From NCBI GenBank assembly GCA_030612265.1, contig JAUWOE010000015.1:1-32180 (forward strand): a DNA stretch of 32,180 nt, read 5' to 3'. The stretch's first letter is position 1. Every line of letters starts with the position of its first letter. The position numbers and the translations under genes were made by a program. A model generated the notes under the pieces. It worked only from the letters and a program-made list of their open reading frames with translations. It searched no databases and was not told the DNA's origin. Origin of the DNA: Promethearchaeum sp. (GTDB taxonomy: Archaea > Asgardarchaeota > Lokiarchaeia > Sigyniarchaeales > Promethearchaeaceae). This document shows, in pieces, positions 5,715-28,921 of the stretch.

Positions 5715-6638
5715 TTATAATGAAATATTTTTTTTGATGATATTAAAGAAATAATCATTTTCTCCCCATATAGATCCTATAATTAATGGGTTTTTCGAGT
5801 ATAAAGCAGTTTCCACTACCCCTTCTGATGAAAAATTAGTAGTTTTAAGAGAAAAATTTGTTTGCATTTCCTTTTCTTCTATATTGACAATTGGTTCAAA
5901 GAACGAGAAATCAGAAAGACCACGGTTTTTATTTTCCATATATCTTTTTGATTCAAGTTTATACATAAATTTTAGATTGTTTGAATTGTAAGTGTGAATT
6001 TTTTCAAGTAGACTTTGTGAATAATCCTTAGATTCAATAGAACAGAATATGATCCCTCCAAAAAATGTTTTTTTCTGACTTTTCATTTCTATTTCTAATG
6101 AGTTCAGAACAAATGCAAGGTCATCTCTTTTTAATTGGACCATTATATTAATTTCTGATTTAAAAGGGGTTAATGTATGGTTTCTCGAGATTTTATTTAA
6201 AAAATTCTTAATGAATTTGGGTGTATGTTCAGGAGTTTTGAACTCTTGTTTTATATCTTTTTCATCTTTCTTATCTTTTTTATTATGCTTTTCAAATCTT
6301 TTTACAATATCCAACAACGAATAATAAGATTCTTTTTGTTTCTCGAGTTTTTCACTTGAATTGGCAATAATAGAATCTAATTTATTTTGAAAAGTTTTCT
6401 TATCAACAATAGAATAATATTTAATACAAGAAATTACTCTACATCTAATCCAACCTTTATTTACTAAGAATTTTAATTCTTTTAATATCCTGAAGAAATT
6501 TATAATTGGATATCTACCTATATTTTTACTGATTACTATAGCAGATTTCTCTTCTTGAAGAAAATAAATGATCTTGATTTTAATTTGATTTAGACCAAAT
6601 AATAGTAATTTATTTTCAAATTCATCTATTTCTTTCAT
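5715..6638 (-). CDS. hypothetical protein with possible N-terminal winged-helix (TrmB-like) domain
   Basis: 307-aa ORF. The N-terminal pattern LLLFGLNQIKIKIIYFLQEEKSAIVISKNIGRYPIINFFRILKELKFLVNKGWI is wHTH-like. The C-terminus was not recognised. Confidence 0.55.
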   Translation of the reverse strand: MKEIDEFENKLLLFGLNQIKIKIIYFLQEEKSAIVISKNIGRYPIINFFRILKELKFLVNKGWIRCRVISCIKYYSIVDKKTFQNKLDSIIANSSEKLEKQKESYYSLLDIVKRFEKHNKKDKKDEKDIKQEFKTPEHTPKFIKNFLNKISRNHTLTPFKSEINIMVQLKRDDLAFVLNSLEIEMKSQKKTFFGGIIFCSIESKDYSQSLLEKIHTYNSNNLKFMYKLESKRYMENKNRGLSDFSFFEPIVNIEEKEMQTNFSLKTTNFSSEGVVETALYSKNPLIIGSIWGENDYFFNIIKKNISL

Positions 6639-6679: not shown

Positions 6680-7612
6680 TCACTTCGAGCACCATTTTTT
6701 TTTAGACATACTGAGTGTTTGAAGTTTAGGATCAATTTTTTGGCGAGATACTTCATCCACCGATCTGTGCACAGATTTTCGGTGCATTTCCAAATCTTTT
6801 CGTGCATCTTTAACGTTTTCAAAGAAATTATCTTTTCCTACTCCCACAATTATCATTATTGGGAAAATTATTAATTCACTATGCTTGAAAATAGGTATAA
6901 TCCATTGTAAAGCCACTGCACAATCAGAAGGACCTTTCTCTGTATAATTTCTTAGTGAAAGTTGGTTATTTTTAAAGATAAAAATGTCTTGTGGGGAATT
7001 ACATTCAAAATTATCGGGTTTTTTATCATAACTTGAACCAATTCCTGCAAATATGCTTTTTTCTAAACCCTTTTCATTATCATATTGGTAAATAATGTTT
7101 GCTTTAGAATTATATTTGGCTATGTCATTTAAATACGATTCTGGACCATATATATCAAAATCATAAAACTGATAGAAATTGAAATTCTTAATTGTTTTAT
7201 CAGTCAAATTTCTAAATGTATAAAATATGAAGAAATATGGCTTATATTTAAATCGATAAACATCAACGTATTCAATAATTCTTTGAATTTCCTTCTCTTT
7301 TTGTATGCTTTCAGGAAATGAAAAAGAATATGTAAATCTTGATACTGAACTATTCATGCTTGATCTTGCATTGATCATTGCAAATTTGGAATCCTTAATA
7401 CCCGATTCAGAATGATAAGAATTTTCAGTACTTTTAAGCAGAACGGGTTTGTTTTCATATTCAAAGTATATACTAGCACCGTTTAAATAAGGTTGAGGCA
7501 AATCAAGAATCTTAAATCCTTTGTATTCGATTGTCTTTATACCGTAACCAAAACTGTAGCCTCTTTCTTGACAGTTTATGCATATTGTCTCGTAATCTAT
7601 AAAAATATCCAT
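6680..7612 (-). CDS. hypothetical protein, beta-rich, no recognised domain
   Basis: 310-aa ORF of coding-like composition in a co-oriented cluster; no family motif recognised. Confidence 0.65.
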   Translation of the reverse strand: MDIFIDYETICINCQERGYSFGYGIKTIEYKGFKILDLPQPYLNGASIYFEYENKPVLLKSTENSYHSESGIKDSKFAMINARSSMNSSVSRFTYSFSFPESIQKEKEIQRIIEYVDVYRFKYKPYFFIFYTFRNLTDKTIKNFNFYQFYDFDIYGPESYLNDIAKYNSKANIIYQYDNEKGLEKSIFAGIGSSYDKKPDNFECNSPQDIFIFKNNQLSLRNYTEKGPSDCAVALQWIIPIFKHSELIIFPIMIIVGVGKDNFFENVKDARKDLEMHRKSVHRSVDEVSRQKIDPKLQTLSMSKKKWCSK

Positions 7613-7650: not shown

Positions 7651-8622
7651 CTAATACTGTTCTAAAAATTTTAAAGCTGCATACTTAAAAGCACCTATTA
7701 CGTTATTTCCCGTTTTTGCTGAACAAAGTAAATATGGACAAGACAATTCTTCTGCTTTTTGCTTTATTTCCTCTAAAGTTACTTCAGAATTATCTAAATC
7801 AGTTTTATTTGCAATTAGTATAAACGAAAGCTGTTGACTAGAATTATCCAGATCTTCTATCCAACGTTGGATTTTAGCAAAAGTGCTTTTCCGTGTAATA
7901 TCGAACACTAAAAATACAAAATTGGCTCCTTGGTAAAATCTTTTTCTGTATGGTGCCGTTTCTTGAGCCTGTCCGCCAATATCCCAAATAGATTCGTTTA
8001 TAATACAATTCTTGTTGATAATTACTTCTTTTCGTGATATATCTACTCCAATGGTGCTTACATAACCGTTTTCAGCAAATTTATTATCGACAAATCTACG
8101 GATTAAGGATGTTTTTCCAACCCCTGGAGCACCTAAAACTATTACTTTTACAGAAAAATTGCCTTCTGGTAATTTACCTTCACGCATATTTGATAAAATA
8201 GGAATAATTGGAGGTATATCCAAGTTTATCAGTTCTTCTCCTTCGAGAATTAATTTTATTTTATTAGCAACATGACTGCCGAACACCTTTAGGCTGTTGT
8301 CACTTATGAATTTATCTGCAATTACAGTGAGAATTGCTTCAAGACCTGCTGTGGCGAATAAGTACTTGTTTTCATCAACTAAGGTAACATTAACAAAATT
8401 TGTTGCGGCTCCGAAATCCTTCTTAATTCTTTCAATAAAAGAATCAAAGGTTGCAGTCACCGTTCCAATTTTATCATCTTCTTTATCCATACCCTTAATT
8501 TTACTGAAAATAATTAATCCATTTCTATCAACAATTGCTGCAGCTTGGATTTCTTCTAATGAGTTTAAAAGATTCGAAATTAATTCATTAAATTTGTCGG
8601 TTATTCCCATCCATGTTTTCAC
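7651..8622 (-). CDS. Roadblock/LC7 domain fused to Ras-superfamily small GTPase
   Basis: The N-terminal ~130 aa are Roadblock-like (IQAAAIVDRNGLIIFS ... LFATAGLEAILTVIAD). The C-terminal G domain has G1 GAPGVGKTS, G2 STIG, G3 WDIGGQ, G4 NKTD and G5 SAK. Confidence 0.92.
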   Translation of the reverse strand: MKTWMGITDKFNELISNLLNSLEEIQAAAIVDRNGLIIFSKIKGMDKEDDKIGTVTATFDSFIERIKKDFGAATNFVNVTLVDENKYLFATAGLEAILTVIADKFISDNSLKVFGSHVANKIKLILEGEELINLDIPPIIPILSNMREGKLPEGNFSVKVIVLGAPGVGKTSLIRRFVDNKFAENGYVSTIGVDISRKEVIINKNCIINESIWDIGGQAQETAPYRKRFYQGANFVFLVFDITRKSTFAKIQRWIEDLDNSSQQLSFILIANKTDLDNSEVTLEEIKQKAEELSCPYLLCSAKTGNNVIGAFKYAALKFLEQY

Positions 8623-8668: not shown

Positions 8669-10819
8669 TTAATTTTCACGATTTTTTAAATAATATTGGG
8701 GGACTGTAGGCTTAAGTAGATATTTCTTTCTGAAATATTTAAGTAATGAAGTAAATAATTCGTAAGGTTTAAGTAAATATGAAAAGAAATTAGCTAATAC
8801 TAATGAAAATCGATTTGAAGTGTCTTTTGCATCAACGGTTTGATTCATTAATCGACCTATTAATTTCTTATCATCGATCTTTTTTATCTCTTCACTAAGG
8901 CCATTTCTATCAAATCCTTGTTGATATTTATTTGCTTTAAATGGGGATCTAAAATCTCGATAAGTGTGAAGAAACCATCCTGAGATATAGGGTTTTGCAT
9001 TTAAGATTCGTATAATATATGAAATAATTAACATTTGATATGTTTCTGAATAAAGTTTTTTAGATCTCTCTGTTCCTTTCTTAGATTCAACTCCAAATTT
9101 TGAAATTATCAGTGGGAAATTACGGTTACTGTAATAGATCATATCTAAAATGAAATTGAATATTGAAATAAATTTATAATTTTTTCCTAAAGAAAGAGAA
9201 ACACAGCTAAGATCGCAATTTGTATGTTTTCTCAACGGATCTATTAAGTAACGATTTGTTTCATAAGTAACTAGTCGTGTAGAATCGATTTTTTTTGCAA
9301 AACTTACTAATCGCTTCAATAATCTTCTACATTCTAAACGTTCTACTGGAAGATCACTTCCTATAGACCATATTATTACCGATGGATGATTAAAATCACG
9401 TCTTATAAGCGTTTGTATATAATTTGAAGCGAGTAAATTAGTTTTCTGGTTTTTAAAATTTGAAAGAGAATATATTGGAATATCTTCATATATGAGTAAT
9501 CCTTCTTCATCTGCTATATTCATTAAGTTTTCATCATGTGGGCTGATTGTCCTTATAGCATTAAATCCCATGGTTTTAATAGCAATAATATCTTTTCTTC
9601 TCTCTGAAATTGATATATTTTGCCCGACTGATATTGATTCTTCTCGTAAGGAAATCCCTTTTAAACAAATTGGTCGATTATTTAGATATATATGGTTTGA
9701 TTTTATATCTATTTTCCGAAATCCAAATCGAATATGCTTGTCTTCATCAATACCATTTAATCGCAATATTATTTCATACAAGTCAGGAGACTCTGGGCTC
9801 CATAAAGAAGGATTTTGAATGGTAATTGTAAAAAGATTGTTAAGATCAACAATTTTTTTCATTGGTTTGATAATATTATTGAATTCATTAACATTATCTT
9901 TACATTGATTTAAGTTTGACTTCTCTTCAATATTACCAAGATTTACATTTTGTTCTATAGAATATTGAGTAAAAATTGGGTCTGAATCAATATTTTCTTC
10001 TGGAATTTGTTGAATATCGGAAATATCTGCAAAATATTTTTCAATTTCTGTAAATTCATGAGATATATGTTTTAGAGGTGGCGAAGGTTCAGGATTAATA
10101 TACTGTGCTCCAGTTTGAATTAAAACCTTATTATATTGAGGCGTTCCTGCAAAAAAATGACCTAAGTAATAAATTTCATATTCAATTTCAGGTTCAATCT
10201 GCTCTAAATAACATCTATCGAGATATTCTTGCGGATTTTTTATTGAATATTCCAATTTAATGAGGGCAGAATCTAATTTTTTATCTTTAAATTCTGTATT
10301 TACTTTGATTTTATAAACTCGCGTTTTTTCCAATAATATAATACGAACATCACGAAAAATGCCCCCCCAATTAAATAACTGGCATCGATTTGATGGCAAA
10401 CTGTCTTTTTGAAGAGAGGGATTAATCCTAACTGCTAAATTGTTTGTAGTTCTTAAAGATAGTATCCTAGGAGAAAACTTAAACCGAAATGGTATACTCC
10501 CTCCTTCATGAGTACCCAATTTATAACCATTAATCCAAATTTCTGTTAGATAATTTGAACCATCAAATTCTATTGAATACTCGTGAGACATAGGGCGATA
10601 AGGGATATTTGGGAGTTCTAAGAAATACCATACAATTCCATTATATTTATCCAAACCTTTCAACATGTTAAAATTGGATGGAACTTGTATGATCTCTCCA
10701 TTTTCTTTATTATCCTTATTATTTTGAAACCATTTAGGGGAATACCATTCATTTTTTATTCCATTATCCGATTCATCTATAAAGAAGAACCATTTCCCAT
10801 TTAGTTCAATATTCACCAT
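8669..10819 (-). CDS. glycoside hydrolase family 2-like protein, probably catalytically altered
   Basis: GH2 features include VPSNFN, a jelly-roll region (EIWINGYKLGTHEGGSIPFRF) and RRDFNHPSVIIWSIGSD (cf. RDxNHPSVxxWSxxNE). The usual (S/T)E(F/Y)G segment reads ISKFG. Confidence 0.85.
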   Translation of the reverse strand: MVNIELNGKWFFFIDESDNGIKNEWYSPKWFQNNKDNKENGEIIQVPSNFNMLKGLDKYNGIVWYFLELPNIPYRPMSHEYSIEFDGSNYLTEIWINGYKLGTHEGGSIPFRFKFSPRILSLRTTNNLAVRINPSLQKDSLPSNRCQLFNWGGIFRDVRIILLEKTRVYKIKVNTEFKDKKLDSALIKLEYSIKNPQEYLDRCYLEQIEPEIEYEIYYLGHFFAGTPQYNKVLIQTGAQYINPEPSPPLKHISHEFTEIEKYFADISDIQQIPEENIDSDPIFTQYSIEQNVNLGNIEEKSNLNQCKDNVNEFNNIIKPMKKIVDLNNLFTITIQNPSLWSPESPDLYEIILRLNGIDEDKHIRFGFRKIDIKSNHIYLNNRPICLKGISLREESISVGQNISISERRKDIIAIKTMGFNAIRTISPHDENLMNIADEEGLLIYEDIPIYSLSNFKNQKTNLLASNYIQTLIRRDFNHPSVIIWSIGSDLPVERLECRRLLKRLVSFAKKIDSTRLVTYETNRYLIDPLRKHTNCDLSCVSLSLGKNYKFISIFNFILDMIYYSNRNFPLIISKFGVESKKGTERSKKLYSETYQMLIISYIIRILNAKPYISGWFLHTYRDFRSPFKANKYQQGFDRNGLSEEIKKIDDKKLIGRLMNQTVDAKDTSNRFSLVLANFFSYLLKPYELFTSLLKYFRKKYLLKPTVPQYYLKNREN

Positions 10820-10896
10820 GAATCGATTCCTTTAATTAAAGACTTAAAGATATCCTTAATAAAATATGAAAAAAAGAAATATATTAAAATATGGGT

Positions 10897-12762
10897 CTAT
10901 TCCGTGTTTGTTTGTTCTTCCTGTTCTTCCTCATTTGCACTTTCTTCAGGTTCTTGTGCTGCATCTGATGGTGGAATAGGTGGAATATAGTCTGGAAGAT
11001 CACCAAACAACACTTGAGACATGAGTAATCCTTCTTTTGATGGCATTTTAATAGCTTGCTGAATCAAAAATTTAGCAGAATCATCATTTAATTCAAATTT
11101 AAACATAATATTCTCGTTTTGTTCTAACAGTGATTTATATTTATTTCCTCCAGTCCCTTCAGGTACGATTAGAATTCCGTAATTGATTTGTTTCGTAGTT
11201 ATTGCATCTGCTAGACGTTTAGTCGCGTAAAATGCAGCTACGCCTCCGCTTTTATCAAAGGTTTTAACTGAAGGTACTTCAATACCATATTTATTTCCAT
11301 TGAATTCTATCATCCCAGCTAAGGAGTAAGACCGTTTTCCCACTAAGAATTTAAAATCCAAATTAATTTTGATATCCTTATGGTATTTTTCTCCTAATAC
11401 TTTTATAGATTTTAAAGCAGCACCCGCCACACTCGCTGGATTCGCTTCAATCGTATAATCTTCATCATCCATCATTTCTTCAATTTTGTCCAAAATGGAT
11501 TTATCATGAACTTCAGGCGCACCTGGTTTGACAGTAGCTGTGGTTGAAGCTAATGTAATACCCACGGGTAAAGATTCTTTCATAACTTCTTCCAAAGGCA
11601 TCTCATCATAGACTAATTTATCAACGAAAATTCTTATAAGTTTAATTATACTTCGCTGATTTCCATCCGTTTTAGCATAAATTGCTTTTAAAACTTCTTC
11701 ATTTAGGGGAAATAAAGGATAAATTGGAGGATTAAGGTTATTTTGAGACCAGAAATATTCCATAGATTTTGCAAAATAAAGTAACAAATCATCAAATTTA
11801 AAATATTCAAGTTCTCTTTCTTGTTCCATACGCGATTTCATTGCCTGATCTGCTGTTTCTAAAATTCTGGGCCAAATTTCCTTTAACACTGCAATTACTA
11901 TAACAACGTTTTGAATTTCATTATACAATCTTTTTAATACTTCTAAGAACTTAGTCTCTGCCTCAGGTCCATGCATTCTGTAAGGGCTTTCTATCTCATC
12001 GAAATACAATATTACAGTCTTTCCTGCATTTTCACAAATCAGTTTTATCATTGCAAGACAAATATCATCGCTTTCAATAACACTTGATATTCCAAGGGAA
12101 GTTAATTCATCTAAATCCATTGTTTCTCCCAATAACCATCTTTCAGCTTTAGAAGATCTTTCTTTGTCCATTGTGTAAATGCAAAGACATTTTACGCAAT
12201 CCGAAAAGATTCCTGGGTATTCTCTAATCCCATTTGATATTGTTACTTCTAAATCTTGACCTCCGAACAAACCCAGCTTCTTCTTCTTTAAGCCACCCCA
12301 TTTGTCGACTAATTTCTCGGCAACAGCCTTTATTATGGAAGTGCTTAATTCATCTAAAAGGCAAGTATAGACATGAAGTAGAATTCTTGAGGCTGCCGGA
12401 GGACTAGGAACATAGACAATCGTCCAATCAGATGGAATATTTGCAGGAATCTCTTCTTCTTCTTCAATCTGATCGGTTTTTGAAATAAGCATTTTCCGTT
12501 CCATATTTTTATAAGCCCAATATGCATGAGTCTTTCCCGAACCGGCAGAGCCTATTATCGGAATGAGTCTTGTAGAATGATCTGATTTAGTTTGACTTAT
12601 GGCACGAAACATAAATCTGTCTATTTTCGCTCTAGGACCCGGAATATCCACAACATCTTGCATTGATCCTCTGGCTACAAATCTGTCGAAAGGTGTTGTT
12701 CCAACCCGTAACACGTCAATATAGAGATCCTTTTCTTCATCTGACATCTGTTGAAATACCAT
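10897..12762 (-). CDS. AAA+/P-loop ATPase with uncharacterised C-terminal domain
   Basis: Walker A GSAGSGKT, Walker B VILYFDEIES, acidic C-terminal tail. A GGAG ribosome-binding-like motif and a TATATAAAT-like box lie upstream of the start. Confidence 0.85.
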   Translation of the reverse strand: MVFQQMSDEEKDLYIDVLRVGTTPFDRFVARGSMQDVVDIPGPRAKIDRFMFRAISQTKSDHSTRLIPIIGSAGSGKTHAYWAYKNMERKMLISKTDQIEEEEEIPANIPSDWTIVYVPSPPAASRILLHVYTCLLDELSTSIIKAVAEKLVDKWGGLKKKKLGLFGGQDLEVTISNGIREYPGIFSDCVKCLCIYTMDKERSSKAERWLLGETMDLDELTSLGISSVIESDDICLAMIKLICENAGKTVILYFDEIESPYRMHGPEAETKFLEVLKRLYNEIQNVVIVIAVLKEIWPRILETADQAMKSRMEQERELEYFKFDDLLLYFAKSMEYFWSQNNLNPPIYPLFPLNEEVLKAIYAKTDGNQRSIIKLIRIFVDKLVYDEMPLEEVMKESLPVGITLASTTATVKPGAPEVHDKSILDKIEEMMDDEDYTIEANPASVAGAALKSIKVLGEKYHKDIKINLDFKFLVGKRSYSLAGMIEFNGNKYGIEVPSVKTFDKSGGVAAFYATKRLADAITTKQINYGILIVPEGTGGNKYKSLLEQNENIMFKFELNDDSAKFLIQQAIKMPSKEGLLMSQVLFGDLPDYIPPIPPSDAAQEPEESANEEEQEEQTNTE

Positions 12763-14157: not shown

Positions 14158-14361
14158 ATGTCAACTACAATCCAGATAAAAAAAAAAACTCTTTCTAAAT
14201 TAAAAAAATTAAAGGATGAAAAAAAAGTCAACAGCTATGATGAGGTTATTGAATCCTTGATTCAAAATGAGTTAAATTTACCAAAAAGTCTCCTTGGTTT
14301 TATGAAACAAAGAACTTCTTCATTCATCAAGGATCCTGAGGACAAGGATCATGAAATTTAA
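14158..14361 (+). CDS. VapB-type antitoxin
   Basis: Small 67-aa protein (MSTTIQIKKKTLSKLKKLKDEKKVNSYDEVIESLI) immediately upstream of, and overlapping by 11 nt, a PIN-domain ORF. Confidence 0.75.
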   Translation: MSTTIQIKKKTLSKLKKLKDEKKVNSYDEVIESLIQNELNLPKSLLGFMKQRTSSFIKDPEDKDHEI

Positions 14362-15730
14362 ATACATTCTAGATTCTTTTGCTTGGGTTGAGTATGCAAT
14401 AGGTTCATTTATGGGTGAATTTGTGGATTTTTTGTTGAATAAAGCGGAATGCTTTACCCCTTCAATAGTGATTGCTGAATTATCATATAAATTTCATCGA
14501 GAAAACAAATTAAAAGATTGGGGGCTATTATACAAATTTATTAAAAATTCAACTCAGATTTTACCTCTTAGTGAAATGCTTGCTTTTCAAAGTGGTCATC
14601 AAAAAACAAAACTCCGAGAAAAACAACTCCCTGGAGAACAAAAAGTTGGACTTGCTGATGCCATTATTTATCAAACATCTTTAAATCATGAAGCTAAGTT
14701 AGTGAGTGGGGATAAACATTTTAAAAATATAAAAAATGTGGTCTATTTGAAGAATAAAATCAAAATTAAGCAAGAAATGAAAAAAATTAACAAATCTGAG
14801 TCTAAAAACAATCAATTAGTTTTTGATAATATAATCCTAAAAAAAATTGATAAGTGCAAAAAAGAATTTATTTTTATGCTTAAAATTGTTCGAATTAATT
14901 TAGAAACTAAAAACATTATCATAGAACCCGTTGAAAAAAGGCATTCCTATGAATTCTATGGTGGGCGATCCTTATCTGCAAAAATAATGTTAGATGAAGT
15001 AAATCCAAAAGTAGACCCATTATCAAAGGATAATAAATTAATATTTGCTTCGGGTTTGTTGGGGGGGACATTTGCTCCAAATTCAGGTAGATTTTCAATC
15101 GGAAGTAAAAGTCCACTTACTAAAGGAATAAAAGAAGCTAATGTTGGGGGATTAGCGCCTACTCTTTTATGTAGAACCGGTATAAAAGCATTAATTTTTG
15201 AAGGAAAAGCCTCAAATTGGCAAATTTTAAAAATCGAAGATGATAAAATCGAATTAGTAGATGCCGATCCTTATGTTGGAATGAATAATTATGAATTAGA
15301 TATTAAACTTTCTAAGAAATTTGGAAGCAAGATTGGTGTCTTTAGCATCGGAATTGCCAGGGAAAAACAATTAAAAGCAGCTTCCATTGCATCAATGGAT
15401 CTTGAAGGTTATCCTTCGCGACATGCGGGAAGAGGGGGTTTAGGTGCTGTTATGGGCTCAAAAAAGTTGAAAGCGGTAATTATTTCCCCCCCAAAAATAA
15501 ACCAAATTAGTTATCATGATAAAAAATCTTTCCAACAAGTTGCATTAAAGTGGGGAAAAAATCTTCAAGAAACAAAAAAAGGGTTCTCCAAATTTGGAAC
15601 ATTAATGGGATTAATGACAATGGATAGTGTGCATGGTCTGCCAACTCAGAATTTTCGGAGTGGTTCCTTTAAAGATGCAGATAAAATCTCGGGAGAAGCT
15701 TTACATCAATATCTTTTAAAAAATAATTGA
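14351..15730 (+). CDS. single ORF: VapC-type PIN domain (about aa 1-135) joined in frame to the N-terminal half of an aldehyde ferredoxin oxidoreductase (from about aa 176)
   Basis: PIN acidic residues are retained: YILDSFAW, IAELSYKF, GLADAIIY, SGDKHF. The AOR part begins MLKIVRINLETKNIIIEPV...FYGGRSLSAKIML...SGLLGGTFAPNSGRFSIGSKSPLT. No stop lies between them. Confidence 0.85.
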   Translation: MKFKYILDSFAWVEYAIGSFMGEFVDFLLNKAECFTPSIVIAELSYKFHRENKLKDWGLLYKFIKNSTQILPLSEMLAFQSGHQKTKLREKQLPGEQKVGLADAIIYQTSLNHEAKLVSGDKHFKNIKNVVYLKNKIKIKQEMKKINKSESKNNQLVFDNIILKKIDKCKKEFIFMLKIVRINLETKNIIIEPVEKRHSYEFYGGRSLSAKIMLDEVNPKVDPLSKDNKLIFASGLLGGTFAPNSGRFSIGSKSPLTKGIKEANVGGLAPTLLCRTGIKALIFEGKASNWQILKIEDDKIELVDADPYVGMNNYELDIKLSKKFGSKIGVFSIGIAREKQLKAASIASMDLEGYPSRHAGRGGLGAVMGSKKLKAVIISPPKINQISYHDKKSFQQVALKWGKNLQETKKGFSKFGTLMGLMTMDSVHGLPTQNFRSGSFKDADKISGEALHQYLLKNN

Positions 15731-16591
15731 AAATTTAGCGTTTCTTGCAGCCCAGGATGCATGATTCGTTGTTCAAATATTGTATTTGATAAAGATGGAA
15801 AGCATATTACATCGAGTTTAGAATATGAAACTGTTGCCCTAAATGGATCCAATTTACTAATCAACGATCTCGAAAAACTGGCAATTATTGATCATGTTTG
15901 TGATGATTTTGGTTTGGATACAATTGAAGTTGGTAACGCACTGGCAGTTTTTATGGAAACTGGGATTATAAAGTGGGGTGATGCAGATGGTTGTATTGCT
16001 TTACTTAATGCAATAAAAAATGATGATAATAATTCTTTAATTCTTGGAAATGGTGCTGTTCAAGTAGGATCTGCTTTAAATATTTCCCGAGTCGCACATG
16101 TTAAAGGTCAAGGGTTACCTGGTTATGATCCTCGTACATTTAAAGGAATGGGGGTGACTTTTGTAACAAGTCCGATGGGTGCTGATCATACCGCTGGAGC
16201 AGCTATTGTTAATAGAACACCTGATTCGGATCTTGATTATGGAAAGCTGCATACTCCTAAAAATAAATTAGAATTATCAAAAAGGCTGCAAATTTTTACA
16301 ATGATCCTTGATTCCATGGGACAATGTTATTTCATCGGTCCAAATATTGAAAATATGTCAAAATTAGCCAAAATGTTGAACGCTCGGTATGAATGGGATT
16401 TAAAAACAGAAGATTTGGTAGAAATGGGAAAAAAATGGTTGAAAATTGAACGTGACTTTAACATAAATGCTGATTTGGATGCTACTGATGATTTACCGAT
16501 GTTTATGAAGAAAGAAAATCTTATAGATCTGCCAGATCGATCGTGGGATATTGATCCAAAAGAAATATCATCCTTTTGGAAGAAATTATAA
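14876..16591 (+). pseudogene. aldehyde ferredoxin oxidoreductase family (AOR) gene interrupted by in-frame TGA at 15728-15730
   Basis: 14351-15730 and 15761-16591 are in the same frame. Read through the TGA the sequence is GEALHQYLLKNN*KFSVSCSPGCMIRCSNIV, continuing the family homology. The distal Cys (LDSMGQC) is also present. Confidence 0.7.
15761..16591 (+). CDS. C-terminal fragment of aldehyde ferredoxin oxidoreductase (ORF-track segment downstream of the TGA)
   Basis: MIRCSNIVFDKDGKH ... GQGLPGYDPRTFKGMGVTFVTSPMGADHTAG is typical of AOR domains 2/3. The ORF-track Met lies inside the Cys motif, so it is unlikely to be a genuine start. Confidence 0.85.
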   Translation: MIRCSNIVFDKDGKHITSSLEYETVALNGSNLLINDLEKLAIIDHVCDDFGLDTIEVGNALAVFMETGIIKWGDADGCIALLNAIKNDDNNSLILGNGAVQVGSALNISRVAHVKGQGLPGYDPRTFKGMGVTFVTSPMGADHTAGAAIVNRTPDSDLDYGKLHTPKNKLELSKRLQIFTMILDSMGQCYFIGPNIENMSKLAKMLNARYEWDLKTEDLVEMGKKWLKIERDFNINADLDATDDLPMFMKKENLIDLPDRSWDIDPKEISSFWKKL

Positions 16592-17431: not shown

Positions 17432-20400
17432 CTATATATCTGGCATTAAATTAAGAAGTGTTGCAATAACTTCCCCTATTTCAGTTAGAGAATTGTCTTC
17501 ATTTATCATTTCCTTTGAATGAAGTGAAGTAATAATAGGAACCACAATCGCAATTTTAGTATTTTTCTTCAAGTGTTTTTCATCTAGTGGTCCATTTTTA
17601 TAAATCTCTTTTAGAACTAGCCTTTCATCCTTACTTAACGGATCTATCATTGGTTTAAACTGTTCGATAAGATATTGTGTTCTAGGATTTACTGCAAAAA
17701 CAATTTGCTCCTTTCTTAATTTTTCAACTACATTAAAAGTATCAACTTCCTTTCTGCCATAACCAGCCATTCTCACAATCATTTCTCTTACACGGAATGC
17801 ATTATTGAAAGATGATTCAGCTTCCTTTAACACTAACGCAGATGTAGATTTCTTTTTAACAGTACCCAAATAGTCCTTAGCTTTTGAAGGAATCACATTG
17901 TGTGGATAGAGTAAATCTGCAAATAGAATTTTCTCAATTAATTCTAAAATTGGTTCAGGGCTTGGGATCTTACCAGAGAAATGTTCTAAAGTAGATAAAT
18001 ATTCCCTTTCAAATTCTGCATTGAATTGTCTAATTTTGGAACGTAAGGTCGGACTCGCAGATTTCAATAATAAAACGGCAGTTCTAACATAGTATCCTTC
18101 AATTACCACGATTTTAAATTGTTGGTATGAAAGTTCTTCCAGTCCAGTTTTTTCATCACCTTGCGAAACAAATGCTTTTTGTTGAGATTTTAGTACTTTA
18201 TGACCAATCTCCTTACCGAAGGTTGATATCGCTGATAAAAATCCACTAATTAATGTTGAATCAATTGGAAGTTCAGTGAAAGTTTGTGAAAATATACTGG
18301 TGCTTGTTTCCTTATGTATAATCAAAACATACTGCATATTTTCAATATCTCCAAATCTTCGATGAATATCCAATAAAGCTTGTCTCTGTCGATTACGCTT
18401 AGGAACTACATAACCCCGATAAATACTTAATGAAAGAACAGTTGCAATTCCTAAACCGATTAATATTGCTTGAATATTCTTAACTATTAATATCCCATAA
18501 TTTATAACACTAACATTATAGTAAATATCACTATCAGAAGAACTCACTCCTGCAAATATTCCAGAGCTTAGGAAAACAATTTCAACAGTATATTCACCAG
18601 TGTCTTCAAATTGAATTGCTTTTTCTGCAATTCCTTCCAAATTTGTGACAGCAGTATAATTTGCTATTATATTCGATTCAATATCTCTAACTATGAAAAA
18701 TATATTTTTTCCCTCAATGATTTCATTACTTTCAGTCGTGAGCTTAACTGAAAATGTGAATTCACCTGCAAATTTTTGTTGAAATGTATCGGATAACATT
18801 GTTAATTGAGTAACCATTTGGGGTAGAATTGGTAAGTTCAAATGATAAACAAAACCTGCAATTCTATTTGTTCCTGCAAATGAAATTGTAATATTTAACA
18901 GATTTCCAGATTCTAAAGGAATAGTATAAGCAATTTCAGCATTCGCATTTTCATCGAAGAATTCAGAATAAACGTAATGACCATTTTCAGAATCATAAAT
19001 TATATCAAATGGAATACCATAAAAAGTCTCGTTAGTTGATGAATTCACAAAATCTGCAGAGATAATTAATTGGATCTCTTGCCCAATTCGAAAAGTATCA
19101 GATGAAACACTAACATCTAAAATACTTTCCCATTTGGGTAAAATATCTAAGGTTATACTCTTGTTTGCATAATCTACTTTAGAAGTTCCTGCGTATTCTA
19201 TAAGAAATGTGATATTTTTGAAACCATCTGCAATTTCAGATATATAATATACTAAAGAACCATTTTGATTTACAGTAATCTGTTGAATAAATGCCGGATT
19301 TTGATAATTCTCGTCGTACCAAGATGTTAGCGTTAAATAAATCCCCGAATATTGGGTATATTCGGTAATATTAATTGAACCGAAAATATCTGCATCATAG
19401 CCAACCTGCATCTCAGATGAAGCACTAACATTTACAGAACATTCCCATTTTGATGATATATTTAAAGTTAATTCTTCACTTTCATATGCTACAGTAGAGG
19501 TTCCTGCGTAATCCATAAAAAATGTTATGTTATCGTGTCCATCTTCAAGTTCAGAGATATAATAGCTTAAAATACCGTTTTGATTTACAGCAAGCTGTTG
19601 AATAAATGTGGGATTTTGATAATTACCATCGTACCATGAGATCAACGTTAGATATATTCCTGAATATTGTGAGACATCTGTAATATTAATGGTTCCTAAT
19701 ATAGTTATATTATATCCAACACGTAATTCAGATGTATAATTTAACAACAAATCAACCGGTATCTTTCCCAATACAGTTTTTGAAACATAATTTGTGCAGC
19801 TCTTTACCGTGCTATTACCATTGTAAGTCGCGTTTATCTCAATTAATTTACCTGCATAATTATAAGGGATAATTTGTGAAAATGTGACTATTCCATTTGA
19901 ATCTGTTGTTTCTACAATATTAAATTCGTCTCCGTCTTCATAATTTATGGATATGAATATATCAGAATCAGGAATTGATGAATTATCAATCATCATTAAA
20001 TTAACTTGAATATCCAATGATGACCCTATCCGAATATTCTCGGGTATATTTAAGGAAATTTTTGTTGTGTTTTTGGAAAAGATTTCTAATCCATAATGGA
20101 CCCATGAAGCATTAGCACAATTTATTTTTGAAGCATTGACCGTAAAATTATAAAGACCAGGTAGAACATAATCGGTTTCAGTTTCAAATTCGATTTCTGC
20201 ATAATAAACTCCTGAAAAGATAAATGTAAAATTTCCAGATAGTGCAATTGTACTTCCATTTAATAATGCCCAAGTTAAGTTTGCATCATTTAAAGGTAGA
20301 TGATTATTTGGATCCAGAACATTTAGATAATTTGCATAGAATTCAAAACTTCCGCCTTCATATAGCTCCGCACTTATACTTGATGCATCAATATCAGTCA

Positions 20401-23400
20401 GAATTGGGAGAATTTCTGTTGTTACTTCTATATACGTTGAATCATAACCATCAACTGAGGCAGAAATTGTAAGAGTATAATTGAACTGTACCGAACCTGT
20501 AGCATTTAATCCAGTTGCATCAATGGTTATATTATAAAGACCTTTGTCTTCGGCATTTTGTGTTTCTCGATATATTTCATCACCGTAAAAGACATTATCA
20601 GTTCCATTGAATTTACCAGATACTATTGCATTTTCAAGAGGAGCTTGATTCGAATTATTAGTTATACTAACTTGAATAACTGAAAGTGAAGTGTCATTAA
20701 CATAGGGTAAATTATCAGAATTCATATAAGCAGAATAAATTGTAGTATTCGTTGCACCTGAAGTAATATTTAAATCAATTGGAAATCCAGTCAAGTTAAT
20801 CCAAGAATCCAATCTCTGATCATCGAAGAAAGGTTTTTCGATCATTATATAAACGAAATAGTTTTCAACAGGAACAGACCGTGTTTTAAAACGTAGAGTA
20901 TAATTACCTTCCGCATTGAATGCTGGATCCTCATAGATATCATCTATTAAATATTGATACGGTGGCCAATCAGTCCCCCATTTATTATCTGATAGATCTC
21001 TATAAAGCGTAATATAATTTTCAGCAAAAGATATAGCTCCATCAGATTGTGAAAAATTTAAGTAAAATTCACCAAGATCACCTGAATTAATTTCTCCAGG
21101 TTCATATATTAATGTAGCAGCCGAGGTCCGCCACACTTCAAAATACGAAGTTTTGATTCCAACTCGTAAAGTTTGATTACTTTCATCATTTGTATCATTC
21201 CATATTCCTAAAATTTGATAATTACCAACACCCATAGAATCGTTTACTGTCCAAGGCATTGTTAAATTATCCGTTTCAGTTGGAAAATATTTTGGAAAAT
21301 TATATATCCATGAACCAGAAGCATTTCTAACGCTTACATTATAATGACCTGGGATACCAAGAAAACTACTTTGATTAGCTATAATATTTGTTTGATTAGT
21401 ATCATAGAATTTAGTTGATGTACTAGATTGATGTTCAATTTCTAAATTACTTAAATAATTTGGAGATGTAAATGATAAAACCCAAGTACCGTTTATCAAT
21501 GAGCCAGGATATTGAGGGCTATCTGTTGAGGCATTAGCAATAGTAAAATTTTGATAATTTCCTGAATTTGCCGTCCCGTTTGAGCGAATTCCCGTAGCGT
21601 AATTTGGATTGAGCCTTCCTAAAGGATCCCAACCTCCAGTCCAATTCCAATCTAATGAATCCTTCCCCAGATTATCCCAAGCGGGGAGATCAATTATTGT
21701 AAAATTATATCCTATAGGAATATAATTTTCATAGGGTTCATCTCTTAATTGGTCAAATGTATTAGTATTATCGAAGGTTACGTTCCAATGAATCCTGTCG
21801 ATTGGGTTATCATCAACATTTGTTAGGTAATAACTGGCTTCTGCATTATTTTCCCTTAATCTATCTATATACATCAAACTCTCGAATTCTAGTTTTGAAC
21901 TATTGTAATTTGTATTGGTTACATTAAAAGCTAAAGTAAAACTGTTGGTGGTATCATTATAGGGATCTGTGGTAATAAATTCAAAATCTGTTTGATCATT
22001 CCATTTAGTTCCATTCCATCTTTGAAGCCCTGCTATTGATAAATCATCGACTTTATATATTGGTTTTAATGTTAGATCATCGAACTTAACAAGAAAAGTC
22101 TCTTTACATGTTTTAAATGGATTTAAGTTTATCATCCCGATTGAGAAAATAATTGAATCATTAGAATTTAGAATATTTTTAAATCGGGAAGTTATATCAA
22201 ATTGAAAATTAATAGGATCATCAGATTCCGCTGTAAAATTATCATTTAACCAAATTAGTGGGTAAAAAATTTCTTCACCTGTGCCTTTGTCTCCAAGATA
22301 TACAAATAGTAACCAATATTCCAGATCTTCTGGTGATTTGAAATTTTCTACAGTGCATTCAAAACCAAATTCTCCAATTTTATATTGATCTTCTTCAATC
22401 GCTCTGATTGCTATTAAATCAAAAATTACTCTCACCTCATCATCAGTTTCGTTTATATTTGCCATCCAAATCCCAAAATCCAACGCATGATTAGTAATAT
22501 TTAGATTTAAATTGTCTGTTATATCAAATATTCGATACACAAAATCATGCGTTTCAATTTTAGAAGTTTCATTATCATATTCAATAGCTGTAGCGGAGGC
22601 ATTTTCGTATTCATTTCCAAAAGTATCTTTTCTTCCATCGACATAGTTATCATCAATTCGACAAATCACAGCAAAATCATCATCTACTTCATATCCAAGG
22701 TTTTCCACTCTCCACCCGACAATTAACTCTACTTTTTTGGGTATAAATGAGGTTTCCCAACCAAAATTTGTTTCCCACGCAATGGAAGGATTTCCTAAAG
22801 TATATTGGCTCGTCCCTGCTTTAATATAAGCTTGTAAATTACCAACATTCCACTGAAGATCAACAGTAGCAGTATCGGTTATTCCTCCATAAGGATTATT
22901 ATAATTCTTTTCCCATCCGGGATCTTCATCAAACTCTTCCCATATTGGATGTTGAGTATCTCCTTGATATACGAAGTCGGTTTCCCAAATAGAATGTTCA
23001 TTGCTTGGTTTGTCAATTTCTTGATACCACTGTGAATAAGCTTGATATGGAACCGAAGGATTTGCCGGTTCTCCATCTCCCATAATAACTAGTTCTTCGC
23101 TGTCAATATAATTTATAAAACCAAAACTTAAAGGATCTTGATATTTATAATAATTCGAAAAGTGGTTCCAAGGACCACCATCAGTAATATAATTATCATC
23201 CAACAGTTCGTGACTCTTATATAATGCAGAAATATTTACATATTCATGATTGAAATCCCATCCGTTTGGAACTTCAAGAGTCATATTTTCATTATCAATA
23301 TCAAGAATAGTTTTTTGATTATGTAGCGGATCAACAAATGGTGCTTGACTGATTATCGATTCTGAAACGTTGAATTGAGAAACATTATTTCCAATAATTG

Positions 23401-23611
23401 TGATAGGATCAATTATAGGTACAGATTCTTCTTGAGTTTGTGGTGAAATTGAAAAATCTTGAATTTCTGAATTTTCATTTGAAATAAAATCATCATTTGA
23501 TATATTTTGAACACTTCCCAGATTAGAATAGCTGTTCAATGGCAAGAAACCGAATAAGAATATGAGAACTGTCAAAGTTTTCATGAGTTGTTTAATTTTT
23601 TTATTTTTCAT
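17432..23611 (-). CDS. giant surface-anchored protein: signal peptide, about 1680-aa Ig-like/beta-rich ectodomain, one TM, cytoplasmic longin/roadblock-like domain and winged-helix-like C-terminus
   Basis: N-terminal signal MKNKKIKQLMKTLTVLIFLFGFLPLNSYS; ectodomain rich in N-x-S/T; TM NIQAILIGLGIATVLSLSIY followed by VVPKRNRQRQ. The cytoplasmic part includes MQYVLIIHKETSTSIFSQTF...LISGFLSAISTFGKEIG...YQQFKIVVIEGYYVRTAVLLL...FEREYLSTLEHFSG and LSKDERLVLKEIYKNGPLDEKHLKKNTKIAIVVPIITSLHSKEMI. Confidence 0.85.
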   Translation of the reverse strand: MKNKKIKQLMKTLTVLIFLFGFLPLNSYSNLGSVQNISNDDFISNENSEIQDFSISPQTQEESVPIIDPITIIGNNVSQFNVSESIISQAPFVDPLHNQKTILDIDNENMTLEVPNGWDFNHEYVNISALYKSHELLDDNYITDGGPWNHFSNYYKYQDPLSFGFINYIDSEELVIMGDGEPANPSVPYQAYSQWYQEIDKPSNEHSIWETDFVYQGDTQHPIWEEFDEDPGWEKNYNNPYGGITDTATVDLQWNVGNLQAYIKAGTSQYTLGNPSIAWETNFGWETSFIPKKVELIVGWRVENLGYEVDDDFAVICRIDDNYVDGRKDTFGNEYENASATAIEYDNETSKIETHDFVYRIFDITDNLNLNITNHALDFGIWMANINETDDEVRVIFDLIAIRAIEEDQYKIGEFGFECTVENFKSPEDLEYWLLFVYLGDKGTGEEIFYPLIWLNDNFTAESDDPINFQFDITSRFKNILNSNDSIIFSIGMINLNPFKTCKETFLVKFDDLTLKPIYKVDDLSIAGLQRWNGTKWNDQTDFEFITTDPYNDTTNSFTLAFNVTNTNYNSSKLEFESLMYIDRLRENNAEASYYLTNVDDNPIDRIHWNVTFDNTNTFDQLRDEPYENYIPIGYNFTIIDLPAWDNLGKDSLDWNWTGGWDPLGRLNPNYATGIRSNGTANSGNYQNFTIANASTDSPQYPGSLINGTWVLSFTSPNYLSNLEIEHQSSTSTKFYDTNQTNIIANQSSFLGIPGHYNVSVRNASGSWIYNFPKYFPTETDNLTMPWTVNDSMGVGNYQILGIWNDTNDESNQTLRVGIKTSYFEVWRTSAATLIYEPGEINSGDLGEFYLNFSQSDGAISFAENYITLYRDLSDNKWGTDWPPYQYLIDDIYEDPAFNAEGNYTLRFKTRSVPVENYFVYIMIEKPFFDDQRLDSWINLTGFPIDLNITSGATNTTIYSAYMNSDNLPYVNDTSLSVIQVSITNNSNQAPLENAIVSGKFNGTDNVFYGDEIYRETQNAEDKGLYNITIDATGLNATGSVQFNYTLTISASVDGYDSTYIEVTTEILPILTDIDASSISAELYEGGSFEFYANYLNVLDPNNHLPLNDANLTWALLNGSTIALSGNFTFIFSGVYYAEIEFETETDYVLPGLYNFTVNASKINCANASWVHYGLEIFSKNTTKISLNIPENIRIGSSLDIQVNLMMIDNSSIPDSDIFISINYEDGDEFNIVETTDSNGIVTFSQIIPYNYAGKLIEINATYNGNSTVKSCTNYVSKTVLGKIPVDLLLNYTSELRVGYNITILGTINITDVSQYSGIYLTLISWYDGNYQNPTFIQQLAVNQNGILSYYISELEDGHDNITFFMDYAGTSTVAYESEELTLNISSKWECSVNVSASSEMQVGYDADIFGSINITEYTQYSGIYLTLTSWYDENYQNPAFIQQITVNQNGSLVYYISEIADGFKNITFLIEYAGTSKVDYANKSITLDILPKWESILDVSVSSDTFRIGQEIQLIISADFVNSSTNETFYGIPFDIIYDSENGHYVYSEFFDENANAEIAYTIPLESGNLLNITISFAGTNRIAGFVYHLNLPILPQMVTQLTMLSDTFQQKFAGEFTFSVKLTTESNEIIEGKNIFFIVRDIESNIIANYTAVTNLEGIAEKAIQFEDTGEYTVEIVFLSSGIFAGVSSSDSDIYYNVSVINYGILIVKNIQAILIGLGIATVLSLSIYRGYVVPKRNRQRQALLDIHRRFGDIENMQYVLIIHKETSTSIFSQTFTELPIDSTLISGFLSAISTFGKEIGHKVLKSQQKAFVSQGDEKTGLEELSYQQFKIVVIEGYYVRTAVLLLKSASPTLRSKIRQFNAEFEREYLSTLEHFSGKIPSPEPILELIEKILFADLLYPHNVIPSKAKDYLGTVKKKSTSALVLKEAESSFNNAFRVREMIVRMAGYGRKEVDTFNVVEKLRKEQIVFAVNPRTQYLIEQFKPMIDPLSKDERLVLKEIYKNGPLDEKHLKKNTKIAIVVPIITSLHSKEMINEDNSLTEIGEVIATLLNLMPDI
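19130..19755 (-). repeat. tandem intragenic repeat, about 315 bp (105 aa) period, two clear copies
   Basis: The protein units SGIYLTLISWYDGNYQNPTFIQQLAVNQNGILSYYISELEDGHDNITFFMDYAGTSTVAYES and SGIYLTLTSWYDENYQNPAFIQQITVNQNGSLVYYISEIADGFKNITFLIEYAGTSKVDYAN match. At DNA level tgttgaataaatg.. at 19281 recurs at 19596. Confidence 0.9.
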
Positions 23612-26092: not shown

Positions 26093-28921
26093 TTATTTCT
26101 TAGTCTTTTCTTTTTTCAATTTTTTTTTAAATTTCAATTTTTCTTTAATATTCCATCCTTTGATTTTAGTGGAAATTAATTCCCTTTTATCATAGAGAAT
26201 GAATCCCACGGATAAGGCTGCTACTACCGATAGTACTCCAACTGCAATGGTTAGATTTCGAATATGTTTGTCCTTATCAATTCCAAGTTCTACTCGAACA
26301 TATATTTTTAATCCCGGTTCTATTGCATCTAACTTTATAAAAATTCTCATAGGTTCTTCAAATTGAAATTGATACGTTGTGTTGATTACAAAAAATCCAA
26401 GATGATCGGGAAATTTTTCATGAGATCCAATTCCATCTGACGCAAATAAATCTGCATATAAAAGTACAATATCACTTTGATTGCAACTGAATTCAATATC
26501 ATATATTTTATCCGGTTCTAGATCCAAATAATAATACTCATAGAATTCAGAAGAATTTTGCATCTCTTCATAATATACATAATTCTCATATACCAAATGA
26601 GGCAAAGTATGATTTGCTGCAATTTCATCAATTTCAATTAAATTTATAGGAGAAAACTCTATCTGTTCTACCACCATCGAGAAATTTTGATAAAGAAGAT
26701 TTTCATCAGTTTTATAAATTATATAGCTCTTGTTTCCTTCCTGCACAAAGGGGTTGTATTTTAGCTCAGTTTTTACAAAATCATTATAAATTTCAGGATT
26801 TACAGAATATCCGACAAAGGTATAAATCGAATTTGGATAGAAAATATCTATTGCAGGAGTACTATAGGTATATGAAACATCACTTTGAATATTCCATAAT
26901 AATTGACCAGAATCTGTATTATCCACTTGTGTCCATAAATCATCCAAATTTCCGCTGAAATCATCAAAAAAGACCGTGGTTGTCTGGTTTGAAACCTTCA
27001 CATTGTCAAAGATTGGTCCGCTTTTTGTTTTTCTAATATTGGATGTCATATTCAGAATAATTTGTAAGGATGAGTCTGAATTGGCACTAATATCAAGTAC
27101 TTTTGTATCAAGCTCTTCCGATCCAGTAAAACTCGCAATTTCTGTTAGGTCAGTACTATTTTGAATGTAGATATATAAGAAATCCCCATCATCCCATATG
27201 TTAAAACTTAATTCAAATTCTAAGGTAATAGTGCCATCTAATTCAAGAGTACTGAAGGAATTGGAAATCAGTGAGTTATTCATATTATCTTGGTAATTAT
27301 TATCAACGTCTCGGCAGTATAGTCTTTTATTCACATCGATCAAGGATGTAGTGGATTGAAGGCTCCATTCATATTGAGTGAAATTAGTAAATGTGAATTC
27401 ACGAACTTGGAAAATTTCATGATTATCAAAGGGTATGCCGTTTGAGCTACCTATATCAATCTGTGTACCGTTAGTAAATTCACTAACGTTTTTAATGTTA
27501 ATTACAATCTCACAATTCAGATTTGAAGAAGCAAAAGTGGTTTGAGCATTTATTATAAGACCCAAATAGTGTGTTCCGTCTATATCACTAACTGCTTGAC
27601 TTGGGATTCCGTGCTCTGCCCACCAATAATGCATCTGTGTAAAATTCGATTGAATAAAAGTATCTTGAAAATTTCTGAATTCCGAATTTACTGATGATGC
27701 GAAAAATGTTGCAGTTTCTGATTGATTATCTCCATAAGAATTTAAAGTAAAAATTGAAGGATTTGTTCTGCCAATTGCATAAAATTCAACCGAAATATCC
27801 CAGAATGCCAATGTAGCTGTGTTGGAATTCCCAAAAGAAATATCAAAATATTCTGACTCATTTAAGGATAGAACTCTCCAAGCTTTGTTTTCTCCTCCAA
27901 CAACAAATTCCACATTTGAATTTTCTAAAATACTGGTGTCATATGATAAAGTGGAATCAATGATAGATGTAAAATTCCAACTTAGTTGAACTTCCCCCAA
28001 ATTTGAATTTATAATGATACCTGGACTACTCGATCCATCCAACTTTAGATTCTCAAACTCTGGAACGAAAACGTTGTTATACTGAGAGTCAAAGACATCT
28101 GTGCGTCGAATGATGTTTCCTGATAGATCTTTCTGCCAACGTATCATTGTGATTGAGTCAGTGACACCAAAACTCTCGTTTAATATGTTTTTAGTTAAAT
28201 CTACTTGATTTTCTGTTGATATATCTAAAATCACACTACTTTCAGATGGTATTGTTGATGAAATTTGCAGATCATCGGAAGAATATTGAACATCAAGGAA
28301 AGGATTTTCAAGATCAACTTCTGCAGATTCTATTTCTAGAGTATTATCAAGAGCATCCGTTGTTTCAGTCAAGGTTACTAACCAAGTGACGTTTAATATC
28401 TGTGGATCAATGGTGTCAGTTAAATAAAGGAGAAATTCCTTAGTTTCTCCAGAAGATACAAATATTCCATTGGAAACTTGATTAGAAAATCCAATATCAT
28501 CCCATTTGTCGTAATCATCCCACATCGGGACTCCTGCAACCTGTAAAAGTTCATCAGAATAATCAGAATTTGATTCTTGAGTTACATAATCTGTAGATGT
28601 AAGATTAGTTGCTAAACACACTTCAAAATCTGCTGAACCATTATTAATAACAGAAAAATTATACATCATGTCATTATTCAAAGTAAAAGGTGATTGCTCA
28701 AATCCATTTATGGGATATTCATTTAGGTTAAAAGACCAACTTGTGGGTCCATCTAAGGCACCACTTGGAACTATTTGACCATTTTCTTCTGAAAGAATCT
28801 CATTTGATTCAATATTAGGGTGTGAAAGGTCTTCGGGTGCTAAATTTAGAAACATTGCTGGTAAATTTAGAAAGAGAAACATTAAAAGTATAAATTGTTT
28901 CTTATTTTGAATTATTATCAT
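26093..28921 (-). CDS. surface-anchored protein: signal peptide, large beta-rich ectodomain, C-terminal TM and Lys-rich cytoplasmic tail
   Basis: N-terminal hydrophobic FILLMFLFLNLPAMFLNL; C-terminal TM NLTIAVGVLSVVAALSVGFILY followed by KLKFKKKLKKEKTKK; many N-x-S/T sequons. Confidence 0.75.
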   Translation of the reverse strand: MIIIQNKKQFILLMFLFLNLPAMFLNLAPEDLSHPNIESNEILSEENGQIVPSGALDGPTSWSFNLNEYPINGFEQSPFTLNNDMMYNFSVINNGSADFEVCLATNLTSTDYVTQESNSDYSDELLQVAGVPMWDDYDKWDDIGFSNQVSNGIFVSSGETKEFLLYLTDTIDPQILNVTWLVTLTETTDALDNTLEIESAEVDLENPFLDVQYSSDDLQISSTIPSESSVILDISTENQVDLTKNILNESFGVTDSITMIRWQKDLSGNIIRRTDVFDSQYNNVFVPEFENLKLDGSSSPGIIINSNLGEVQLSWNFTSIIDSTLSYDTSILENSNVEFVVGGENKAWRVLSLNESEYFDISFGNSNTATLAFWDISVEFYAIGRTNPSIFTLNSYGDNQSETATFFASSVNSEFRNFQDTFIQSNFTQMHYWWAEHGIPSQAVSDIDGTHYLGLIINAQTTFASSNLNCEIVINIKNVSEFTNGTQIDIGSSNGIPFDNHEIFQVREFTFTNFTQYEWSLQSTTSLIDVNKRLYCRDVDNNYQDNMNNSLISNSFSTLELDGTITLEFELSFNIWDDGDFLYIYIQNSTDLTEIASFTGSEELDTKVLDISANSDSSLQIILNMTSNIRKTKSGPIFDNVKVSNQTTTVFFDDFSGNLDDLWTQVDNTDSGQLLWNIQSDVSYTYSTPAIDIFYPNSIYTFVGYSVNPEIYNDFVKTELKYNPFVQEGNKSYIIYKTDENLLYQNFSMVVEQIEFSPINLIEIDEIAANHTLPHLVYENYVYYEEMQNSSEFYEYYYLDLEPDKIYDIEFSCNQSDIVLLYADLFASDGIGSHEKFPDHLGFFVINTTYQFQFEEPMRIFIKLDAIEPGLKIYVRVELGIDKDKHIRNLTIAVGVLSVVAALSVGFILYDKRELISTKIKGWNIKEKLKFKKKLKKEKTKK

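Follow-up and report, generated by a model that had tools for sequence, protein, structure and literature searches.

The stretch of DNA analyzed here (referred to as the window; 32,180 nucleotides of Promethearchaeum sp., contig JAUWOE010000015.1, assembly GCA_030612265.1) originates from an Asgard genome of 3.77 Mb. Its minus strand carries an open reading frame (ORF) that starts with ATG, is open over 2059 amino acids (aa) and encodes a receptor-like protein. The predicted protein is composed of a signal peptide, an ectodomain of about 1675 aa, one transmembrane (TM) helix and a cytoplasmic tail of 328 aa (Table 1). The nearest named relative, Candidatus Prometheoarchaeum sp. CSMAG_2396, encodes an ortholog whose tail is 93% identical, and 13 further full-length orthologs (35–47% identity) are present in other Lokiarchaeia. 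The ORF is therefore considered a real, conserved gene; a spurious, chance reading frame is ruled out by the existence of these orthologs.

The part of the protein preceding the TM helix contains 66 N-glycosylation sequons (N-X-S/T), compared to 26.7±4.4 (standard deviation) expected from composition-preserving shuffles, while none occurs after it. The same excess outside was observed in 24 relatives. When 98 distinct receptors of the family described below were pooled, the sequon density was 3.82 per 100 aa outside versus 0.51 inside, and the net charge was +4.4 after the TM helix versus −1.2 before it; in the 2059-aa receptor the first 15 residues past the helix are strongly basic. An inverted topology is ruled out by the sequon distribution together with the charge. 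Having a signal peptide, one TM helix, outer glycosylation sites and a basic inner side, the product can be firmly predicted from its sequence to be a type I single-pass surface protein. The original prediction, made from this DNA alone, had proposed a signal peptide, a beta-rich ectodomain, a single TM helix and a cytoplasmic tail with a longin-like segment on the inner side, and both the architecture and the placement of this segment were borne out.

An AlphaFold2 (AF2) model of the tail, built from a 49-row alignment of relatives (mean predicted local distance difference test score, pLDDT, 87.4; predicted template modelling score, pTM, 0.76), contains, in this order, a TM-proximal helix, a ββαβββαα longin-fold domain and two winged-helix-like segments. 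In model numbering, the helices (H) and strands (E) are H7–27 (TM-proximal), E28–35, E41–46, H54–76, E95–98, E101–107, E111–117, H123–139 and H154–165, of which helix 54–76 carries the family motif. The strand order is that of a longin domain, with an extra N-terminal helix. The best solved structures found by Foldseek were AP-2 sigma (E = 3.5e-4), TRAPP Trs23 (8e-4), sedlin (9e-4) and AP-1 sigma, followed by the MK-D1 roadblock, Fuzzy-Inturned, MglB and Bet5 (TM-score 0.63 by target length); the probability for the top matches was 1.00, and AP-1/AP-3/COPI subunits were also found. Nearly all the matches listed belong to the longin/roadblock superfamily, with modest E-values (3.5e-4 to 6e-3), which are probably due to the further domains in the modelled chain. 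Strand order and structural matches agree with each other and with the longin/roadblock-type fold proposed earlier for this segment. Since four relatives start directly at strand 1, the helix that precedes this strand in the tail appears to lie outside the core, and longin is a better label than roadblock; these relatives give no support to a strict roadblock label.

At the sequence level, no Pfam or NCBIfam model covers the tail, Pfam Robl_LC7 leaves it unmatched, and there was no consistent Pfam longin match among its 49 relatives. Among the sequences of solved structures, neither single-sequence nor profile searches gave a convincing homolog; a match to YttP (E = 0.0025) was rejected, as the alignment covers a helical stretch only. 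The Pfam clathrin-adaptor small-chain family had no match in the window's genome, but the control genomes were likewise matchless and this search is hence uninformative.

The original prediction had also placed a winged helix at the C-terminus, which is consistent with the AF2 secondary structure, but required a correction: the longin domain and the C-terminal segment are separated by another segment of this kind. This first segment has a likely counterpart in shorter-tailed receptors, as judged from alignments, and no match among solved-structure sequences. The second is confined to the full-length ortholog group; its best profile matches, the winged helices of CheF and BLM, are weak (E = 0.03–0.5). 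The pattern of three helices and a wing is visible in the AF2 model.

The ectodomain appears to be built of two different parts. The AF2 model of the head (pLDDT 71) gave Foldseek matches to reelin repeats, CBM22 tandems and PNGase F. Their TM-scores were low, so that only the fold class (jelly-roll sandwich) is claimed. A profile of residues 60–600 had no match outside the ortholog group; thus, the head was found in full-length orthologs only. Parts of the stalk are common to some other receptor groups, and in the orthologs it matches bacterial Ig-like (Big_1) and macroglobulin (MG4) domains of Pfam. An Ig-like ectodomain, as first proposed, therefore holds for the membrane-proximal half, and not for the head with its predicted jelly-roll beta-sandwiches. 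A profile of the whole ectodomain gave no match to solved structures. None of the 11 aligned orthologs, that of the sister species included, has the extra copy of one Ig-like domain that a tandem duplication generated.

Table 1. Features of the receptor gene, with positions in the window.
Feature	Position	Strand	Basis
Whole receptor-like ORF, 2059 aa	17432–23611	−	Orthologs found
Signal peptide-like N-terminus, residues 1–30, basic then hydrophobic	23522–23611	−	Sequence reading; hydrophobic N-terminus also in orthologs
Head, residues 60–660, predicted tandem jelly-roll beta-sandwiches	21632–23434	−	AF2; Foldseek
Membrane-proximal stalk, residues 930–1706, Ig/macroglobulin-like repeats	18494–20824	−	Pfam matches in orthologs
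Tandem duplication of one Ig-like domain, residues 1282–1386 and 1387–1491, 71% DNA identity	19139–19768	−	Of 12 genomes compared, seen in this one only
TM helix, residues ~1707–1731	18419–18493	−	Hydrophobicity; basic stop-transfer VVPKRNRQRQ next
TM-proximal cytoplasmic helix, residues 1738–1758, near-invariant Asp1755	18338–18400	−	AF2; conservation in receptors
Longin-fold domain, residues 1759–1901, bb-a-bbb-aa, hallmark helix L[IV]SGFLxAIxxF, near-invariant Arg1843	17909–18337	−	AF2, Foldseek, conservation
Winged-helix-like segment 1, residues 1923–1973	17693–17845	−	AF2 secondary structure, alignments
Winged-helix-like segment 2, residues 1994–2055	17447–17632	−	AF2; weak CheF/BLM profile matches

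A search with the tail in 59 relatives revealed a match in every genome, comprising about a dozen full-length orthologs (ORFs of ~1900–1960 aa) and many shorter-tailed relatives (ORFs of at least 1100 aa). In a phylum-wide sample, the tail domain was present in 141 of 148 Asgard genomes, many of them with at least 10 copies. Across 85,462 species genomes, a scan that sees only proteins carrying the motif L[IV]SGFL[SQT]A[IM][ST] identified 77 loci, all Asgard-titled except three: two in one Bathyarchaeota-titled bin, whose genome groups within the window's order, and one on a Phycisphaerae-titled contig, taken to be a binning error. The 98 distinct receptors form 39 groups at 55% tail identity, and the same type of TM helix and longin tail stands behind ectodomains of 253–3266 aa (some cut by contig ends). 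In most of them the tail is about 230 aa long and lacks the last winged helix. Among the orthologs without the sister species, identity per 100-residue block was mostly 30–50% in the tail versus mostly 15–45% in the ectodomain. This receptor architecture is real, conserved and widespread, and the best explanation of the 2059-aa protein is that it belongs to a large family of single-pass surface receptors of type I in Asgard archaea.

The longin-type domain was also found in proteins of other organization. Eleven loci of Heimdall- and Hodarchaeota encode fusions with a HerA-like ATPase (863–886 aa), and these genes are often adjoined, on the opposite strand, by another longin-like ORF (about 850 aa). 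A Helarchaeota protein (L085; 5364–8423) combines an FG-GAP/BBSome-like propeller, winged helices, a longin domain and a zinc ribbon.

Two charged positions of the tail are kept in nearly all receptors. Asp24 (model numbering; Asp1755), at the end of the TM-proximal helix, is present in 97% of the 98 receptors, and position 112 (Arg1843), in strand beta-5, is Arg (87%) or Lys (9%) in 96% of them. Both residues occur together in 106 of 115 receptors; among the other family ORFs, 11 of 57 have both, and several of these 11 are receptor fragments at contig ends. Such a pair would be expected of a contact through which the placement of the TM helix is relayed to the core of the longin domain.

Longin/roadblock dimers act as GTPase platforms (PMC10933270, PMC8213707, PMC8534245), and the receptor may likewise be coupled to small GTPases. 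Family ORFs of 298–315 aa and 871 aa have a longin domain joined to a P-loop GTPase-like domain, and in a Jordarchaeum protein a longin-type domain is fused to a roadblock. The 871-aa proteins (L109 and L110, the latter at 9941–12556) additionally contain helical repeat-like and nitrilase-like domains, and a Ras-like GTPase gene lies directly upstream. The genome carrying the window has 52 Ras-family matches. One of the GTPases, encoded within the window (7651–8622), is a roadblock-Ras fusion and had been named as the partner in an outside-in device; this gene is located about 9 kb from the receptor gene, with unrelated genes between. While the architecture of the proposed device agrees with the fold and topology, this partner is, given the missing gene linkage, without gene-order support. 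Two ORFs adjoining the roadblock-Ras gene (5715–6638 and 6680–7612, minus strand; 307 and 310 aa) have no Pfam or NCBIfam match.

The receptor orthologs have hardly any common neighbours beyond the sister species. Immediate same-strand GTPase neighbours occur in five receptor groups, which is not above background, and an operon with a GTPase was rejected as a general feature on the neighbour counts and the ortholog neighbourhoods. An Arf-like GTPase gene is located about 2.8–4.4 kb downstream, on the opposite strand, in one related receptor set of about ten species, which may reflect functional linkage or plain synteny. The situation reported for MK-D1 is similar: operons are lacking, and partners of the GTPases cannot be matched from gene order (PMC10933270).

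The best-supported reading of these data, which in our judgement has an even chance of being correct, is a receptor coupled to a GTPase. The giant N-glycosylated ectodomain, with its jelly-roll head and Ig-like stalk, would bind a polymer, a surface or a partner cell; this binding, or clustering, would pair or re-orient the longin domains at the membrane via the TM-proximal helix, with coupling through Asp1755 and Arg1843; and the longin pair would hold or regulate a Ras/Rab/Arf-like GTPase at that membrane patch, as in TRAPP, GATOR1, C9orf72-SMCR8 and MglB. The output could be that of a guanine nucleotide exchange factor (GEF) or of a GTPase-activating protein, or could consist in recruitment. 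In a wider form of this reading, dozens of glycosylated ectodomains on a conserved TM-helix-longin-winged-helix tail would pass outside contact to such GTPases throughout the phylum, a system that would be a prokaryotic precursor of GTPase signalling under receptor control; this is proposed tentatively, at somewhat less than an even chance.

Several observations weigh against GTPase coupling. Synteny with the GTPase at 7651–8622 is not kept in the receptor orthologs, and GTPase ORFs occupy 7 of 167 slots at positions −1/+1, with no enrichment compared to 68 of 1505 among all ORFs of the same loci. The relatives with GTPase-like or HerA fusions are distant ones. Neither a catalytic arginine nor a GEF residue was identified in the tail. 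The arginine finger of NPRL2 is situated on a loop, whereas the near-invariant Arg1843 is part of strand beta-5, a position that gives no support to a role as an arginine finger. The Asp-Arg pair may reflect ancestry instead of contact. Moreover, some longin domains, such as those of AP sigma subunits and longin SNAREs, do not regulate GTPases.

Alternatively, the protein might be a structural surface protein or adhesin, whose longin-winged-helix tail anchors a glycosylated coat to trafficking, ESCRT or cytoskeletal machinery, with no signal involved. Asgard cells have complex surface densities without an ordered S-layer, and cryo-electron tomography revealed numerous unassigned surface proteins on Lokiarchaeum (PMC9834061); furthermore, Asgard longin domains occur in multidomain proteins together with ESCRT- and adaptin-type domains (PMC11188069), and several relatives of the receptor bear PCI/winged-helix arrays. 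However, a specific output is suggested by the tail being better conserved than the ectodomain and reused with unrelated ectodomains. In addition, a 942-aa surface protein encoded nearby (26093–28921, minus strand), with a signal peptide, one TM helix and no Pfam or NCBIfam match, lacks a longin tail and shows that a short basic tail is enough for a surface protein. We regard this alternative as possible, though unlikely.

A cargo or sorting receptor, in which the longin domain acts like an adaptor sigma/mu subunit or the longin of a SNARE and directs the protein to protrusions or vesicles, seems improbable. The presence of AP-2 sigma and AP-1/AP-3/COPI subunits among the top structural matches would be in line with such a role, and longin SNAREs also pair a longin domain with one TM helix. 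Nevertheless, no SNARE motif was recognized past the longin domain by sequence reading or family match, the existence of trafficking vesicles in Asgard archaea is not established, and a longin domain alone is no evidence of trafficking (PMC4917890). A transcription regulator tethered to the membrane like ToxR or CadC, in which the winged helices would bind DNA and the longin domain would serve as sensor-dimeriser, could account for the two winged-helix-like segments and the CheF and BLM matches, but is very improbable, as the last winged helix is absent from most receptors and the winged helices found beside longin domains in relatives have their matches among protein-binding modules, namely families of the PCI and UFM1-ligase type.

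The window also contains an aldehyde ferredoxin oxidoreductase frame with an N-terminal PIN domain (14351–16591, plus strand). It is broken by one in-frame TGA (15728–15730), just ahead of the Cys-rich motif CSPGCMIRC, and resumes in the same frame; this TGA might encode selenocysteine or have arisen recently as a stop codon.

Small GTPases of eukaryote-like type and longin/roadblock domains are very numerous in Asgard archaea, and the receptor family provides a list of candidate upstream inputs to these GTPases; an ectodomain physically joined to a longin platform makes their upstream control testable. If the proposed coupling is true, receptor-to-GTPase signalling would predate eukaryotes. 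No description of receptors with an ectodomain, a TM helix and a longin tail was found in the literature searched (subscription papers and most preprints lay outside it); the parts are known, and the architecture is provisionally new.

The closest described counterparts by fold and phylum are the Asgard longin-domain proteins, including the MK-D1 longin model; 41 such proteins are reported in Lokiarchaeum, five of them fused to Arf-like GTPases (PMC4917890, PMC10933270). In the descriptions covered, the proteins are soluble or GTPase-fused, and none is described with a signal peptide, a giant glycosylated ectodomain and a TM helix before the longin domain. The Longin/Vps28-C/adaptin-appendage proteins of Asgard ESCRT also combine longin, Ig-like and winged-helix/PCI modules (PMC11188069), whereas no ESCRT or adaptin domain was matched in the 2059-aa protein. 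NPRL2/NPRL3 (GATOR1), FLCN-FNIP and C9orf72-SMCR8 are similar in having a longin followed by further domains and in regulating GTPases by a longin pair (PMC8213707, PMC8534245), but they are cytosolic, function in nutrient sensing and have an arginine finger on a loop, which was not identified in the tail. MglB and the MK-D1 roadblock have a related fold and form GTPase platforms; the N-terminal helix of roadblocks is structural, while that of the receptor sits next to the TM helix, and several soluble relatives lack it. The TRAPP subunits Bet5/TRAPPC1, Trs23/TRAPPC4 and sedlin have a similar core fold, but are soluble complex subunits with no ectodomain and with only ~12–15% identity to the tail. 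Plexins, single-pass receptors in which a large beta-rich ectodomain is combined with an inner domain that regulates GTPases, share no inner fold with the Asgard receptor and offer a functional analogy only.

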